A DNA stretch of 64,000 nt from Intestinibaculum porci. GTDB lineage: Bacteria > Bacillota_I > Bacilli_A > Erysipelotrichales > Coprobacillaceae. Below, piece by piece: positions 33,192-40,828 of the stretch; positions within the stretch are counted from its first letter, which is position 1; each line of letters opens with the position of its first letter. The position numbers were made by a program, and so were the translations under genes. The notes below the pieces were generated by a model. That model saw only the letters and a list, made by a program, of their open reading frames with translations, did not search any database and was not told where the DNA came from. Location of the stretch: assembly GCF_003925875.1 (NCBI RefSeq), contig NZ_AP019309.1, positions 2,170,001 through 2,234,000 of the forward strand, written 5' to 3'.

Positions 33192-34439
33192 ATGAGTAGA
33201 AATTGTTTTATTGGTCAGTCGGGTGGACCAACCGTCGCGATTAATGCATCTTTAGCGGGTATTGTCGCACGCTGTAAAGAAGAAGGTTATGATCATATTT
33301 ATGGAATGATCAATGGCATTAAAGGTTTATTAGAAGATCATTATATTGATTTAGGAGAAATCTTTGATTCCTCAGATAAGATCACTCAGCTTAAAAACTC
33401 CCCAGCGATGTATCTGGGAAGCTGCCGTTTTAAGTTACCGAATATTATTTTAGCGCCAGGCACATATGAAAAGCTCTTTAAGAAATTTAATGCTATGGAT
33501 ATTACCGATGTCTTCTATATCGGTGGCAATGATTCGATGGATACCGTTGCGAAATTATCCACTTATGCCAAAGCGATCAATTCTCCAATTCGTTTTATCG
33601 GTATCCCGAAAACGATTGATAATGATTTAATGGGCACCGATCATACACCAGGTTTTGGTTCGGCTGCGAAATATGTAGCTAGCAGTATGTTAGAAGTTTT
33701 CTATGACAGTGCGATTTATAAATTAAACGCAGTCACAATTGTCGAAATCATGGGACGTAACGCCGGCTGGTTAACGGCCGCTAGTGCCTTAGCAAGAGAA
33801 AACGGCGCCACTGTGCCGGATCTCATTTATCTGCCAGAAGTGCCTTTTGACACAGATAAGTTTTTAGCGGATATTCATGAAAAGTTTAAAGAAAAATCTT
33901 CTATTATTATTGCGGTATCGGAAGGGATCCGTAATAAAGAAGGAAATTTCTTAGATCAGGATTCTAAATATACAAAGCGCGATGCCTTTGGTCATGTCCT
34001 CCACTCCGGAACTGGCAAAGTCTTAGAATCCATTGTTTATAAAGAATTCCATTGTAAAGTCCGTTCGATTGAATTAAACGTCTTACAGCGCTGTGCTATG
34101 CATATCGCCTCAAGCACGGATATTGAAGAATCCTTCCAGATTGGTGAATTCGCTGTTAAGCAGGCCATCAGTGGTGAAACCGGCGTAATGATCGTCGTGA
34201 AACGTTTAAGTGATACACCTTATCAGATTCAATGTGAAACACTAGATGTCACTAAAGTAGCCAACTTAGAGCACAAAATTCCAGTAGAATGGATCAATAA
34301 AGACCATAATGATATCACCCCTGCTCTGCATGATTATCTCTATCCACTCATTCAGGGTGAAGTGCATGTCAATTATGCGAATGGTATTCCTCAGTATATT
34401 GATATCAGTCATCTCCGTAATAAAATGATTAAAGAATAG
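33192..34439 (+). CDS. pfp: 6-phosphofructokinase, PPi-type
   Basis: A 415-residue phosphofructokinase. FIGQSGGPTVAINAS is the nucleotide or PPi loop. Instead of the ATP-enzyme GGDGS it has GGNDS, and PKTIDND instead of PGTIDND; both changes mark pyrophosphate-using enzymes (Asp and Lys exclude the ATP alpha-phosphate). ATP-using members with related motifs exist, so the donor is inferred. MGRNAGWLTA is the sugar phosphate site. The original stop was TAA. The IS66 element entered exactly here, so the stop is now TAG, made from the first base of the element, and the protein is unchanged. Confidence 0.9.
   Translation: MSRNCFIGQSGGPTVAINASLAGIVARCKEEGYDHIYGMINGIKGLLEDHYIDLGEIFDSSDKITQLKNSPAMYLGSCRFKLPNIILAPGTYEKLFKKFNAMDITDVFYIGGNDSMDTVAKLSTYAKAINSPIRFIGIPKTIDNDLMGTDHTPGFGSAAKYVASSMLEVFYDSAIYKLNAVTIVEIMGRNAGWLTAASALARENGATVPDLIYLPEVPFDTDKFLADIHEKFKEKSSIIIAVSEGIRNKEGNFLDQDSKYTKRDAFGHVLHSGTGKVLESIVYKEFHCKVRSIELNVLQRCAMHIASSTDIEESFQIGEFAVKQAISGETGVMIVVKRLSDTPYQIQCETLDVTKVANLEHKIPVEWINKDHNDITPALHDYLYPLIQGEVHVNYANGIPQYIDISHLRNKMIKE
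34431..34438. repeat. IS66 target duplication, left copy
   Basis: AAAGAATA, repeated exactly at 40821-40828. Eight bases is the standard IS66 duplication. Confidence 0.93.
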
Positions 34440-34678
34440 TAAGCGTATTATAAACACGTCATCTTTCCAGCCAACTCCTGGCCTTTGCTCATAGACATAC
34501 AACCAAACAAAGGATATAATACTCTAAGAAATACTTTGCGGCTGTTAGTCAGATAATCTGAGTAAACCGCTAAAGTTATTTCTACCTAGGATCGGTTATA
34601 AAGATTTAATCGAGGATATGCGATTCTCATTATGCTGTGGCTAGATAAATTGGTTAGCGGTACAATAAAACCAGGGAG

Positions 34679-35340
34679 TTATTCCTGGCTGTTATTAGAT
34701 ATCTTTATGTCGTCTGGCAATGACTTTGAATATGGCAGAAGACGTTCGATTGTCTCTTGCGTCATTTTGTGAATGGAAAGCTCAGATAGCGCATATGTAA
34801 TATATTTTTCAAAATCAAGATTGTTCATCTTTGCTGAAGTGAAGAGAGTGAACCAGTTCATCATGGTTTCAGCGCCTTCTACTGAATTTGCAAAGAGTAC
34901 GTTCTTGCGTGTCATGACAAACGGCTTTACGCCTTCACGTTCAATAAGATTATTGCTGATTGGGACTTCTGGATGACTGATATAATACAGCAGTTTTTTC
35001 CATTGCTTGACAATATAATTCATTGCAGCCGAAAACTTACCGGAAGGCAGAAATTTTTCTTGAATTTCCAGTATCTTAGCGTGAATTTCTTTTAAAATAG
35101 GTAATTCCAGTTCTTCACGCACTTTTAGTATTTCATCTGTCCCAGCGTTCTTTCCCTTCAGCTTACGTTCATAACCGAACACTTTGCCGATCATCTGCAG
35201 TAGACAAAGCTGATGGCCGAAAGCTGGATTATCTTTTAGAATTTCATGCCTGCGATCGTCACTCGTAGACTTATTATGAAATTCTTTATAGATATTAGTC
35301 TGGATCTTCATCGCATCCTCGATGTAGCGTCTGGCATGGG
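34679..35340 (-). pseudogene. IS66 TnpC, C-terminal part
   Basis: The C-terminal ~220 residues of the DDE transposase: HARRYIEDAMKIQ just after the break, then the catalytic Glu in NNLIEREGVKPF and FANSVEGAETMMNW. It joins to the other half at the HA codons: WAH on the right side and HARRY here. Without the first two catalytic Asp it is inactive alone. Confidence 0.88.
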
Positions 35341-35369
35341 CCTTATTCTAGATCTAGAATAAGGCCCAT
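35336..35369. repeat. Perfect 34-bp palindrome at left end of RIT element
   Basis: ATGGGCCTTATTCTAGA is followed at once by its exact complement, with no loop. It contains two TTATTCTAG half-sites in opposite directions, so it looks like a tyrosine-recombinase core site or a joined-ends scar. Confidence 0.75.
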
Positions 35370-35493
35370 TATTCATGCTCTTTTTTTATTCAAGGAAATT
35401 AAAAATATTAAGATATTATTGATATTTATTGAAGGTATCTCAGATAATAATTATACTGAGATTGAAGAGTATAAAATCTAAGGAGCTGATTAT

Positions 35494-36742
35494 ATGAAAC
35501 GATTCTGTTAAAGTTACTGTTACGATTTCTCTAATTGACGAATTTATTGATTTTCTCCAAATTAAAGGCTATAACAAATCATCAACACTTAACGAATATA
35601 GATGCGGTTTGATAAGGCTTTTCGATTTAAAACATAATGAATCCATCTACTACCATTTAGCTGACGCTGATAAGATAATTCAGCGATATATTTACAAACA
35701 TTCCAAGCCTCTCTCATATAAAGATATGCTGTATCTTAAACTCTATATGCGAAGATTTAATGAATTTCTCCAGGGTGAATATCACTTATATGAACCCAAG
35801 GATGATCCTATAGAAGCATTAAGCGCTTTGCATAGAATAATAATTAATGGCTATCAAAAGTACTGCCGTAAAAAAAATAATTCGGATTGGACGATTTCAA
35901 GTAAGCGAGCTGCTGCTATATTCTTTCTAAGGCTTATCGAAGAAAGCGGAATATTCGATATGTCATTTGATGCTCGTGATACCACAGCAGCACTTCTTCA
36001 TGTTAAAAATAATGATCAGTGGAATAATATCAGGCTGTTTCTTATTTATCTTCATGATGCAGGTTCAGTTTCTGAAGATTATGCCAATCTCATTCCATAT
36101 GCAAAAAATAAAGTACCTTATCCAACTGTTTATACTATCGAAGAAATCAAAAAGATTGAAGCTGTCATTGACCGCAATACACTTACCGGAAAGCGTGATT
36201 ATGCGATGATACTTTTAGACACCCGACTTGGCATGCGAGCCGGTGACATCGTTAATTTAAAAATAGCGGACTTTGACTTTAAACATAATAAGATATGTCT
36301 CAATCTTAATAAAGGTGGAAACTTACAGGAATTTGTTCTTCTACCAGTAATTAAGGACTCAATTAATGACTATCTCGAAGCATCTGGGAACAGTGGGGCT
36401 GAGTATATATTTGAATCTATTAATTCTCCAAAGAGAAAAGTTACTACCGGAATTTTACGTCATAGACTTGACTACTATTTTGTGAAGGCTGGAATTGATA
36501 TTAAAAACAAGAAACATGGACCTCATTCCATCAGATCATCAATGACTTCATCAATGGTAAATGATGGAGTTTCCTATGAGACTGTTCGTAAGATACTCGG
36601 TCACAAAGACCGTGATGCGGTAAAACACTATGCAGCCCTTGATATTGAAACTCTTAGAAAATGTGCAATCGAAGTTAAGAATCCAAGTGGCTCCTTTCTT
36701 GAATTCCTAGGTGGCGACGATAAAAATGAAAACATGCAGTGA
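35494..36742 (+). CDS. ritA: RIT tyrosine recombinase A, start possibly frameshifted
   Basis: The C-terminal catalytic domain is complete: Arg in DTRLGMRAGDIVNL, Lys candidate in NKGGNLQEF, HSIRSS, LGHKDRDAVKHYAALD with the nucleophile Tyr. The N-terminal SAM-like part begins upstream of any good start. AAGGAGCTGATTAT places the ATG at 35494, but that frame stops after five codons; the protein frame is one base over and open from 35498. So the start is either broken by a one-base indel or uses TTG at 35606. Product 377 residues or more. Confidence 0.75.
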
Positions 36743-37706
36743 TTTATTAACTGATTCAAAAAATTATCTTGATATACGCAAGAAAGTGCTGAGTACCTAT
36801 AGCTTCTATCATTACAAGCAAATAATCAGAGAATTTAATGAATATTTCTCTAAGAGTACATTGAAGGATGTTTCTGCAATTAACGAAATGGAAATTACAT
36901 CATTTATCAGGACAATTACTGGAAAAACATCAACGGTAATAAATAAACTGATAGCTCTTCGCAAATTCATCAACTATCTTAACAGCATCGGATACAAGAT
37001 CTTTGTGCCAGAACTCCCAGAAAATCATGATGATTATGTTCCATATATTTTCAGTGATGATGAGATATCTGAAATACTTGAATATCTTGATAATCTACCC
37101 TTGGAAAAAGGAATGAATCCATTGTTGCAGTACGAAATGCCTATGATTATCAGAATAATGATAAGCAGCGGCACACGTATTTCTGCAACGCTACATATCA
37201 AGCTGGGAGACTTTGATCCTCAGATGCACACTATCATCATTAGAAAGGGTAAGAATTATAAGGAGCGTATTGTTCCGTTAAATTTTTCCGTATCTAAAAT
37301 GCTTATAAAATATATCGACGCTATGAATATATCCAATCCTGAATCCTATATTTTTCCAAATGCACTGAATGACAATGAGCCAATGAAGTATAAGAGTGTT
37401 GCAAATAAATTTCATAATGTACTGCTGAAGCTTAATATTTATGATCACTCTGGATATAAAACACGAGGTCCATGCCTTCACTGTCTGAGACACTACTTCG
37501 TAATTAATTCTTTAAGAAAATTGATAGCTGAAGGAATACCAATTGATAATTATATTCCGTATCTCTCAATCTATCTTGGTCATGATAGCTTAGATGAAAC
37601 CGAAAAATATCTTAAGTTCAGTCCTGATATATTTACTGATGAAGTTGAATTGTTTTCAGAATCAATATTAGATATTCTGCCGGAGGTGGAAAATGATGAG
37701 GACTAA
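36726..37706 (+). CDS. ritB: RIT tyrosine recombinase B
   Basis: About 326 residues. Catalytic residues: Arg in SSGTRISATLHIKL, Lys in RKGKNYKERIV, HCLRHYF (HxxR), YLGHDSLDETEKYLKF with the Tyr. The start overlaps the end of ritA by 17 bases; ATG at 36726 is preferred over GTG at 36711, though the ribosome site (AGGTGG) lies a little far from it. Middle member of the trio. Confidence 0.85.
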   Translation: MKTCSDLLTDSKNYLDIRKKVLSTYSFYHYKQIIREFNEYFSKSTLKDVSAINEMEITSFIRTITGKTSTVINKLIALRKFINYLNSIGYKIFVPELPENHDDYVPYIFSDDEISEILEYLDNLPLEKGMNPLLQYEMPMIIRIMISSGTRISATLHIKLGDFDPQMHTIIIRKGKNYKERIVPLNFSVSKMLIKYIDAMNISNPESYIFPNALNDNEPMKYKSVANKFHNVLLKLNIYDHSGYKTRGPCLHCLRHYFVINSLRKLIAEGIPIDNYIPYLSIYLGHDSLDETEKYLKFSPDIFTDEVELFSESILDILPEVENDED

Positions 37707-38706
37707 TAAACTGCTTAACGCATTGAGAAACTATATTGAAACTTATCTTCCAGATACAAAAGGACTATCCAATAATACCATCAAATCATATAAGGCAACT
37801 TTCAGACTGTTATTTGAATTCTTTAAAGTAGTTTATAAATTAGAACCCGATCAGATCAGTTTCAGCAGTCTTGACTATGATCATCTAAATGCCTTTCTAC
37901 TCTGGCTTGAAAGCAGTAGAAATGACAGCGCTTCAACTAGAAACCAGCGACTTTCGGCACTGTCGTCATTTTCTAAATATGCTCAGTCACGTAACTTTGA
38001 TGCGGCCGTTATATTCAGAAATGCTGTTCTATCATTGCCTGTAAAAAAGGCACCAGTTAAAATGAGACAGGTTATGACAAGAGAAGAAGTCAAAATATTT
38101 TTATCACTGCCTGATGTTAATAAGCCAACCGAAAGACGAAATAAGGTCCTGCTTTCTTTTATGTATTCCACTGCGGCACGTGCACAGGAAGTATGTGATC
38201 TAACGACTACTGATATATCCATTCGTAATGGAAAATATTATGTCACTCTTCACGGAAAGGGAGGAAAAGCAAGGATTGTTCCAATCAATAAAAAGATGTA
38301 CAAACTTCTGCTTCAGCATATTAAAACGAAGCCTAGACAGTACAGAAATTCAAAATATGTCTTTAATTCGCAGACAAATGAACAAATGTCTGTTTCTGCA
38401 ATTGAAGAGATATTTAAAAAATATCAGAAGATGGCAAAAGATAAATATTCTGATATGTTTAACGGTAATTACACACCTCATACGATGCGCCATACAGCTG
38501 CTACCCATATGCTTGAAAGCGGTGTTTCCATTCCTGTTATTAGAAGCATTCTTGGTCATTCATCAATAGAAACGACAATGATCTATGCAAGGGTAAATCA
38601 AGCAATGGTTGATAAAAAGGTAAAGGAATGGAATGAAGAACATTTTGCGATAGAGCCTGAAGCGAATCCAAAAGAAATTAAAGATGATCTTGATTTTCTT
38701 AAATGA
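37693..38706 (+). CDS. ritC: RIT tyrosine recombinase C
   Basis: A 337-residue recombinase closest to the XerC/D layout: SAM-like N-terminal domain (residues 5-110), then Arg in STAARAQEVCDL, Lys in LHGKGGKARIVP, HTMRHTAATHML, and LGHSSIETTMIYAR with the Tyr. All six expected residues are present. GGAGGTGG precedes the ATG at 37693, which overlaps ritB by 14 bases. Confidence 0.9.
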   Translation: MMRTNKLLNALRNYIETYLPDTKGLSNNTIKSYKATFRLLFEFFKVVYKLEPDQISFSSLDYDHLNAFLLWLESSRNDSASTRNQRLSALSSFSKYAQSRNFDAAVIFRNAVLSLPVKKAPVKMRQVMTREEVKIFLSLPDVNKPTERRNKVLLSFMYSTAARAQEVCDLTTTDISIRNGKYYVTLHGKGGKARIVPINKKMYKLLLQHIKTKPRQYRNSKYVFNSQTNEQMSVSAIEEIFKKYQKMAKDKYSDMFNGNYTPHTMRHTAATHMLESGVSIPVIRSILGHSSIETTMIYARVNQAMVDKKVKEWNEEHFAIEPEANPKEIKDDLDFLK

Positions 38707-38786
38707 TTATTCAAGAAAAAACTTGAAAGCAGTATTAAATAAAAGCGCTTGTCAGTTTGTCTAGAATAATAATTCTACTTGAATAA

Positions 38787-39847
38787 TGAGCCCAGCACCC
38801 TGCGTGACCTGAAAAATCGGTATAGTTATCGTAAACGGTATATCCATCGGTCACTGCCGTTCCTGAAAAATGCTCGCCGTCAATAATGAGCATTTTTTTA
38901 AGTTCGTTGATGCTTCGTCCAGGTCCGTAGGAATAGATGGCCATCTGCTTGTCTTCTATTTCTCCGGACATGCCGATCCAGACATAACTATCTGAATTTC
39001 TAGTCCCGCGCTTGACTTCCTCAAGGACTTTTAGCTCTGTTTCATCGAGGTGGATAAAACTAAGTCTCAGGAAATCATGGCGCATTTTATCGACGATAAA
39101 ACGCAGATACTCATTCATGCTTCGCCATAGCCAGTTGCTAAGAAGCGTTCTGGAGATATTGTAGCCCATATCCTTATAGGCCTTCTCCTGGCGATAAAGA
39201 GGCACACACTTCTTAAGAAGATCATAAGCGGTATGGGCTACAAAAGCTGGACTGGCTGCCGATTTTTCAAAAAGAGTCACCGGTACAGGCTGACTGCTGT
39301 GATATATCTTCAGATGATCATTATTAGACTCATCGCAATCCTTGTGCTGGTTAAAGCATGCAAAATTATGGAAAATACTTTTCTTAATGTAGATTTCCGC
39401 AGGTATATACACTAACTCATTAATAACGGTAGGAGCGATTTCATGCATCTCCTTGCCGCATATCGGACAAACAGTGCTGTCAGGGTTATAATGCACTTCT
39501 TTTACTGGCAAACCAGAAAGAGCCTTTCCTTTTGGCTTTCTTGGCTTCTTTTTTGCCTGTTTAGCACCATCAGGAATATCATCGCCGTCTACGATCACAA
39601 CGGTATTATCCTCTAATCCAAGAAGCTCAAAGATATTGAGCTGATCAGGATTGAACTTCTCGCTCTTTCGTCCAAATGACTGTCTTTTCATTGAGAGAAT
39701 AATTTCTGTAAGATTATTAACTTTGGACGCAAAAAGCATAGTGATAGTCTCAAGATCTTCGCGCGTCATAGATTTTATTATATTGTCTGCATTTCCTTTC
39801 TGCATACCTGTGCAGATTTTATCTATCATTTTTAATATCTTATTCAT
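38787..39847 (-). pseudogene. IS66 TnpC, N-terminal part
   Basis: Residues up to GCWAH of the IS66 transposase, followed by 17 codons read through the RIT end to a stop at 38735. It has the leucine-rich N-terminus, the zinc-finger CPICGKEMHE, and the first two catalytic Asp in IHLDETELKV and VTDGYTVYD. The Glu-bearing part lies at 34679. Confidence 0.88.
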
Positions 39848-39915
39848 AAGAATATTATATCATAAATATCTTCTAAAATGAAGAAATATGATGTAATAAT
39901 CGTAATAATTTTAAT

Positions 39916-40278
39916 TTATACATACTGCCTTTCTATCTTTTTGAATGCCGTTGGCTGGTTTATTTTGAGTCCTTCCATCAGCCATCTGAACTGCTGCTCG
40001 CTGATCTCCGCATAGCTGCCATCAGATGATATCTTCCATTTGAACGTTCCTTTTTCCAGTCTTTTGTAAAGCAGCCAAAAGCCTGTGCTGGCGTTGTCAT
40101 AGTAGAGCGCCTTAATTTTATTGTGTGATTTGTTGCAGAAGATGTATAGGCAATGATCCATCGGACTTCTGTGGAAGATAGACTGAACGATGGCTGCATA
40201 GCCGTCAATGCCTTTTCTCAGGTCAACCGGTTCCGTGCATACAAAAATCTGCTTAATATCGTCTCCTAAGAAATTCAT
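39916..40278 (-). CDS. tnpB: IS66 Orf2 (TnpB)
   Basis: A 120-residue IS66 Orf2 protein: VCTEPVDLRKGIDGYAA and LYIFCNKSHNKIKALYYD are hallmarks, with GFWLLYKRLEKGTF. An accessory needed for IS66 transposition; role poorly defined. The ATG at 40278 overlaps the tnpA stop by four bases (ATGA), so I prefer it over upstream starts. Confidence 0.9.
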   Translation of the reverse strand: MNFLGDDIKQIFVCTEPVDLRKGIDGYAAIVQSIFHRSPMDHCLYIFCNKSHNKIKALYYDNASTGFWLLYKRLEKGTFKWKISSDGSYAEISEQQFRWLMEGLKINQPTAFKKIERQYV

Positions 40279-40739
40279 ATTGCCACACACACTTTTACCA
40301 GTTTTATAAGATCCGCCTCCGGTATGGCGGTGCTGCACCTTAACCTAATCGTACCAACATTAATTTCAAGAACAGAGCCGCTGCATACGCTGGTAAAAAG
40401 TTCTGTGTTATTAGTCATACTTTCGCAACTGTCAGGGTCCGAACCATCAGGAACAACCATTAGAGGCACAATGACATCTAAAGCCTTTTCGTTATCATAT
40501 AAGCTTTCCTGATCGGTGCCTAATGATTCGCTATGATCCATTTCTGCGCCTTCGCTAATAACTTCATCATAATCAAGCTGAATATATGCCGCCAGATCAG
40601 GCTGTGACAAAAAGTACTTTCTCTTTTTATAGAAAGAGCTGGTGCTAACACCAATTTGCTTGCAGTAATATCTAACTCTCATTCCAGGATTATAATGTTT
40701 GAAAATATCGATCCATTTATCAATCGTTGCTTGTCTCAT
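40275..40739 (-). CDS. tnpA: IS66 Orf1 (TnpA)
   Basis: A 154-residue protein. The N-terminal ~50 residues form a helix-turn-helix (WIDIFKHYNPGMRVRYYCKQIGVSTSSFYKKRK, split over the helices). The remainder is acidic and variable, as in IS66 Orf1 proteins. First gene of the element. Confidence 0.8.
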   Translation of the reverse strand: MRQATIDKWIDIFKHYNPGMRVRYYCKQIGVSTSSFYKKRKYFLSQPDLAAYIQLDYDEVISEGAEMDHSESLGTDQESLYDNEKALDVIVPLMVVPDGSDPDSCESMTNNTELFTSVCSGSVLEINVGTIRLRCSTAIPEADLIKLVKVCVAI

Positions 40740-40820
40740 AAAATAAAACCTCCTTTTGACTTCAGGGTAATTATCCCAAAATCAAAAGGAGTTTGAAAGA
40801 CGTGTATATTATACGCTTAC

Positions 40821-40828
40821 AAAGAATA
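40821..40828. repeat. IS66 target duplication, right copy
   Basis: AAAGAATA, identical to 34431-34438. Confidence 0.93.

Follow-up and report, generated by a model that had tools for sequence, protein, structure and literature searches.

We propose, with a probability of about two in three, that RIT elements move by tyrosine-recombinase site-specific transposition through a circle bearing two inverted cores, either of which can be used; both the circle and the catalysis are inferred from comparison of sequences. The element under study, here RIT-1, lies within an IS66-family element of Intestinibaculum porci, in a window of 64,000 nucleotides (the whole stretch of DNA analysed, to which positions refer). 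Its insert has the layout T1 - X(6) - S(20) - X'(6) - RIT - X(6) - T2, in which X stands for the target hexamer, X' for its reverse complement, and S for a 20-bp dyad.

The host element occupies 34439..40820 on the minus strand, ends in GTAAGCG.../...CGCTTAC, and is flanked by an identical 8-bp target duplication, AAAGAATA (left 34431..34438, right 40821..40828). The hallmarks of IS66 are present, namely the order tnpA-tnpB-tnpC, a DDE_Tnp_IS66 domain, GTAA ends and the 8-bp duplication, with tnpB (39916..40338, minus strand) matching Pfam TnpB_IS66 at 1.5e-33 and tnpA (40275..40739, minus strand) assigned by position only, without a Pfam match. The transposase gene tnpC, also on the minus strand, is in two pieces: the 5' part (38787..39847), encoding the transposase N-terminal and the first part of the DDE domain up to W-A-H, matches positions 1-156 of the Pfam DDE_Tnp_IS66 profile, and the 3' part (34679..35342), from A-R-R onward and stopping at the first core, matches positions 176-283 and the C-terminal element. 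When the flanks are joined with one hexamer, the frame is open across ...HAGC[WAH]ARRYIEDAM.... The reading given in an earlier note on this DNA, a RIT in an IS66 transposase gene split at the WAH-ARR codons, is borne out by these pieces and by the three rit genes in order, and its expectation that the target could be rebuilt to within a few bases was right. Upstream, a phosphofructokinase-like gene (33192-34439) was entered by the IS66 at its stop codon (34428-34440), and its new TAG stop is made of the target duplication and the first G of the IS66.

The plus strand carries three tyrosine-recombinase genes, arranged in tandem with overlaps in the order A-B-C, which is also found in most related loci: ritA, called from a TTG start (35609..36742); ritB (36726..37706, alternative start GTG 36711), which overlaps ritA; and ritC (37693..38706, from its open reading frame and Pfam match), which overlaps ritB by 14 bp. 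All three match Pfam Phage_integrase (E values of 2.8e-20, 1.7e-17 and 2.1e-39 for ritA, ritB and ritC, respectively) and carry the active-site residues (R, HxxR, GH, Y), as GMR/HSIR/GH/Y in RitA, GTR/HCLRH/GH/Y in RitB, and AAR/HTMRH/GH/Y in RitC. Two core-binding domains in RitA and an extra C-terminal helix in RitC are described as RIT traits (PMC8138268); a C-terminal tail of RitC was seen in the alignment. While the complete active sites claimed previously are thus present in all three proteins, and their catalytic domains are complete, the N-terminus of RitA may not be: the gene seems to be frameshifted by 1 nt right after its likely original ATG at 35494 (ATGAAACGATTC), the frame resuming at 35498, from where it is open to the called start. 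The first ~37 amino acids of the frame extended upstream (35494-35608 region) align with the N-termini of other RitA proteins. Since RitA looks frameshifted in all three copies of the element in this genome, the present activity of the element is doubtful, or may depend on other RITs in trans; yet two of the copies that share the apparent frameshift (L015 and L016) moved recently. A fourth conserved gene (ginD/srap) was absent, there being no further plus-strand open reading frame of at least 80 amino acids between ritC and the right-hand core.

Alignment of the joints gives GTCTGGCA-TGGGCC-TTATTCTAGATCTAGAATAA-GGCCCA-TTATTCATGC[RIT]ACTTGAATAA-TGAGCC-CAGCACCC, with a true insert of 3,450 bp at 35343-38792. 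The core adjoining the left IS66 flank, X1 (35337..35342, plus strand), is TGGGCC, as in L015, and TGAGCC in L016. The insert begins with S (TTATTCTAGATCTAGAATAA, 35343..35362), which holds the same place relative to the IS66 in all three copies despite inversion of the RIT in L015, followed by the inverted hexamer X2 (GGCCCA, minus strand, 35363..35368), the RIT body of 3,418 bp (TTATTCATGC...ACTTGAATAA, plus strand, 35369..38786), and the second target copy X3 (TGAGCC, plus strand, 38787..38792), which adjoins the right IS66 flank. The body begins TTATTCA... and ends ...TGAATAA, its length fits the ~3.5-kb RIT type, and the palindrome spans 35337-35368. A boundary of 35336-38792 had been given in the earlier note, which was nearly right, being 1 bp off with the left end misread, and its 7-bp target ATGAGCC does not hold: the duplicated core is 6 bp, TGGGCC on the left and TGAGCC on the right. 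A 7-bp core was rejected, since under a 6-bp core every arm becomes TTAT/ATAA and the joints restore reading frames. Nor is the 34-bp palindrome (35336-35369) part of the element end, as had been supposed. It consists of X-S-X', and its S and X' portions (26 bp) are a separate part of the insert, found on one and the same side of the target in either orientation of the RIT.

The earlier note had seen a single copy, and the genome (G000, 3.21 Mb) holds two more. All three IS66 copies are occupied, one (L016) with the RIT in the same orientation as in the window and the other (L015) with it inverted relative to the IS66; the latter two are flanked by their own 8-bp duplications, AGCTCTCC and TGTGTACT, and no RIT-free copy of this IS66 was found in the genome. 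The RIT bodies of L015 and L016 differ at 0/3,330 bp, and the window copy has 19 private differences. In contrast, the IS66 parts of L015 and L016 differ at about 40 of 2,946 positions (~1.4%), and the chance of identical RITs within such flanks under common descent is 2e-20. It follows that the RIT either moved or underwent conversion apart from its host, which is indirect evidence of mobility for RIT-1. Spread of IS66 and RIT as one composite by IS66 transposition, with the RIT a passenger homogenised by gene conversion, would suit the clean 8-bp duplications, the presence of a RIT in all three IS66 copies and the absence of an empty one. We regard it as highly unlikely, given the opposite orientation in L015, the identity of the RITs within divergent flanks, and a tnpC that is split in all three copies; the conversion would also have to end precisely where the RIT does, and on an inverted copy. 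Two nested insertions involve these copies. In L016 (1153-2250) the second composite, with its duplication AGCTCTCC, has itself entered a different RIT, at the 3' end of the ritC gene there, and in L015 (3175-4734) an insertion sequence encoding a 519-aa transposase, with an apparent 5-bp duplication (ATAAT), lies inside the inverted RIT upstream of ritA. The genome is an unusually RIT-rich host, with at least 9 RIT-like loci and 27 RitC-like matches in 3.2 Mb.

A second element of this genome, RIT-2, lies in an ISL3 transposase in three copies with exactly the same layout (X = GATGAG), one of them inverted, and all three ISL3 copies are occupied. Its copies are 100% identical over 4,122 bp, with flanks 98-99% identical between L061 and the other two. 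It ends in inverted repeats of 107 bp (94%), within which, upstream of ritA, a fourth open reading frame (210 aa, L059 7073-7705) was observed. Both orientations at one target occur in four unrelated RITs (RIT-1, RIT-2, the Rhodococcus element L072/L085, and a Bacteroides element), with S on the same side in all four. Where S is asymmetric, in RIT-2 and the Bacteroides element (two informative RITs), its direction with respect to the RIT is constant, S and RIT both flipping relative to the target; both copies therefore reduce to one circle, RE-X-S-X'-LE, opened at different cores. A single insertion followed by flipping in place, either between X2 and X3 or by homologous recombination between the terminal inverted repeats, with copies spread along with the host element, would draw on the inverted cores that surround the RIT, on the long inverted repeats of RIT-2, and on two loci (L079 and L137) that resemble flipping products. 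We consider this unlikely: a flip of the RIT only would leave S unturned, whereas S turns with it in RIT-2 and the Bacteroides element; L015 and L016 share one RIT sequence within IS66 copies that differ; and a new insertion is documented in the plasmid described below.

Movement was seen for a relative, the Bacteroides RIT, through filled and empty plasmids. The plasmid pMMCAT, present in many Bacteroidales, is filled in B. uniformis CL06T06C18 (L084) and empty in L089-L092, of which L089 was compared with the filled form base by base. The flanks show 0 mismatches in 1,465+1,500 bases. The empty site, GCCGAACTG-ATGATC-GAAAAGATAAAG, becomes GCCGAACTG-ATGATT-TTATGTTGAGGTCAACATAA-AATCAT-[RIT 3,809]-ATGATC-GAAAAGATAAAG when filled, and the insert of 3,841 (20+6+3,809+6) is exactly S+X'+RIT+X; the jump therefore added these parts and nothing else. 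The X1 of the filled plasmid is ATGATT although the empty site has ATGATC, having changed to match X2 (AATCAT). The same strain has a sister plasmid (L074) whose RIT is identical (0/3,809) and points the other way with respect to a related gene; the empty form of that site is GATCAT in pBUN1, a 93.5% identical relative. No intact relative of the window IS66 was found as DNA or protein in ~310 genomes of the order, nor in the plasmid collection, and the exact empty sites of the Bacteroides RIT serve in place of that comparison and support the insertion reading. They also bear on the idea that the palindrome pre-exists in the target and is selected by RITs, beside which palindromes had been noted earlier (PMC3414803). 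The empty sites have no palindrome, which refutes the idea for the Bacteroides RIT, and removal of S restores host reading frames, so that we give it next to no credence in general.

To survey the layout, loci with RITs were scanned for X-N-X'-...-X and scored against shuffled controls. Clear sites scored 43-47 in a first scoring (shuffled, at most 40) and 43 in a second (shuffled, at most 36); these controls, together with the empty sites, led us to reject a chance palindrome. About 18 distinct RITs, from four phyla, share the layout (the window element and about 17 others). With S of 20 bp, it was found in RIT-3, RIT-4 and RIT-5 of the same genome, L053, L055, L072/L085 (Rhodococcus), L074/L080/L081/L084 (Bacteroides), L076 (C. 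necator pHG1), L079, L127, L132, L133, L135 and L137, and cores were degenerate in L126 and L136. The consensus of S is approximately TTATGT-N8-ACATAA. A clear S was not found in about 10 RIT loci (L056/L129, L057, L058, L065, L073, L077, L130, L131, L134 and L138), many of them truncated or decayed or lying at a contig end. L079 and L137 have a copy of S at each RIT end and inverted flanks outside; flipping, genuine variation or an assembly effect may account for this arrangement. A solo X-S-X' with the same sequence as in the pHG1 RIT, TAGCGC-AAATGTGCTGCAGCACATTT-GCGCTA, was observed in C. oxalaticus (L086 3001-3034, NZ_CP038639) with no RIT beside it. Among Cupriavidus copies X3 is TAGCGC, TAGCGT or TAGATC, and the left ends are lost in two. 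No close relatives of RIT-1 were found in its family, and scans of genome_contigs and viral_contigs returned nothing close; the RitC nearest to its own (53%) is on a 3.4-kb contig. The Rhodococcus RIT was absent from E. coli genomes.

In the transposition pathway that we favour, recombination between X1 and X3, which are direct repeats, would excise a circle RE-X-S-X'-LE. In this circle X and X' would each lie between two element-borne arms (ATAA-N6-TTAT), that is, in a lox-like core with a 6-bp overlap, and either core could pair with a hexamer in the target that is similar to X. The side on which S ends up would then be set by the polarity of X, with the RIT free to take either direction, and a loose overlap identity (4 to 6 of 6) would shuffle mismatches among X1, X2 and X3. 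The three core types are the obvious candidate match for the three recombinases. The X1 base change in pMMCAT, the S at both ends in L079 and L137, and the ten or so loci with no clear S speak against the simple form of this dual-core model, which does not account for the solo X-S-X' in L086 either. The same base change would fit a strand-biased copy-out route in which the palindrome folds as a single strand, like attC, or serves as a templated hairpin, X' being remade from the target X each time. This would also suit the S of most RITs, whose dyad is perfect or nearly so; SE elements, also with several tyrosine recombinases, are reported to be strand-biased (PMC10214605). On the other hand, S is an imperfect palindrome in RIT-2, RIT-3 and RIT-5, and X2 differs by one or two bases from X1 or X3 in several copies, as if carried in and not copied, and we hold this route to be rather improbable.

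With one X retained, the flanks reopen reading frames in enzymes of mobile elements, and X falls on conserved motifs when these are read by eye and post hoc. These motifs are WAH (RIT-1) and NN-LAE-R (L135) in IS66; the first D, VM-DE, in ISL3 (RIT-2); GKA-KIE-R (RIT-5) and NQK-GKIER (L133) in rve; GGK-T (L055) and VGK-T (L127) in the IstB Walker A; PQ-GG in group II reverse transcriptases (L072 and L126, unrelated RITs); TT-ERY in the Tyr box of a tyrosine integrase (L076); and APGATDLRK in IS66 TnpB (L136). RIT-4 lies in a DDE_Tnp_1 gene and the Bacteroides plasmid copies in ArdC. Matches to group II intron RNA support an intron context for L072, L085 and L126 only. Two elements depart from this pattern: RIT-3 lies just beyond a LuxS domain, L053 close to the C-terminal end of a TraG-like ATPase. 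On this by-eye reading, the hexamer in most targets would fall on conserved catalytic codons in the enzymes of other mobile elements, which may provide a homing-like supply of sites; the window copy would have taken the WAH codons of its IS66, and a near-identical RIT the same codons in two further IS66 copies.

RITs were described in 2009 and are widespread; the main paper on them is reportedly Ricker 2013, alongside Van Houdt 2009/2012, and part of the anatomy given here may already stand in the former. Tn554 likewise uses more than one tyrosine recombinase acting together and a 6-bp core, but has two recombinases plus TnpC and one strong attachment site, and we know of no S segment in it. 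The coupling sequences of CTnDOT and Tn916 are similar in that a short overlap, partly homologous between element and target, leaves mixed bases at the joints, whereas these elements are conjugative, with a single integrase and one core in the circle. GInts and SE (strand-biased circularizing elements) share several tyrosine recombinases, a 6-bp exchange, hybrid att sequences and circular forms (PMC5385486, PMC10214605), but need a fourth, non-recombinase gene (ginD/srap), bear cargo, and have no second inverted core described. The RIT archetype, ritA1B1C1 of C. metallidurans CH34, itself sits in an IS66 tnp gene (PMC2864759), and RIT traits include a length of ~3.5 kb, inverted ends and an adjacent palindrome (PMC3414803). 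The archetype resembles the window element in its three overlapping A-B-C genes, its size, its inverted ends with a palindrome, and its insertion in transposase genes, IS66 included (PMC2864759, PMC3414803). A RIT inside IS66 is thus already known, and the window element is a new RIT member. Relative to the archetype's description, the palindrome is here resolved into target core, 20-bp S and inverted core, and both orientations at one target are added, with exact empty and filled sites. RIT mobility was undemonstrated according to PMC3414803, and RIT movement is given as not tested in PMC10214605.

For specialists, the points of interest are how the element ends are built, the jump seen in nature, the model with two cores and the targeting of catalytic codons. 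The analysis defines the RIT ends exactly, together with the target duplication, and predicts the joints of the circle; it also gives a cultured strain with a past jump and a landing rule, and the RIT papers within reach leave the need for three recombinases unexplained. RITs could, at even odds, represent a mechanistically distinct transposon class, with dual inverted lox-like cores around a 20-bp segment and hexamer targets in catalytic codons, that behave like homing parasites whose hosts are transposons, introns and plasmids. Should catalytic codons prove to be the targets, RITs would inactivate competing mobile elements and at the same time be carried by them.
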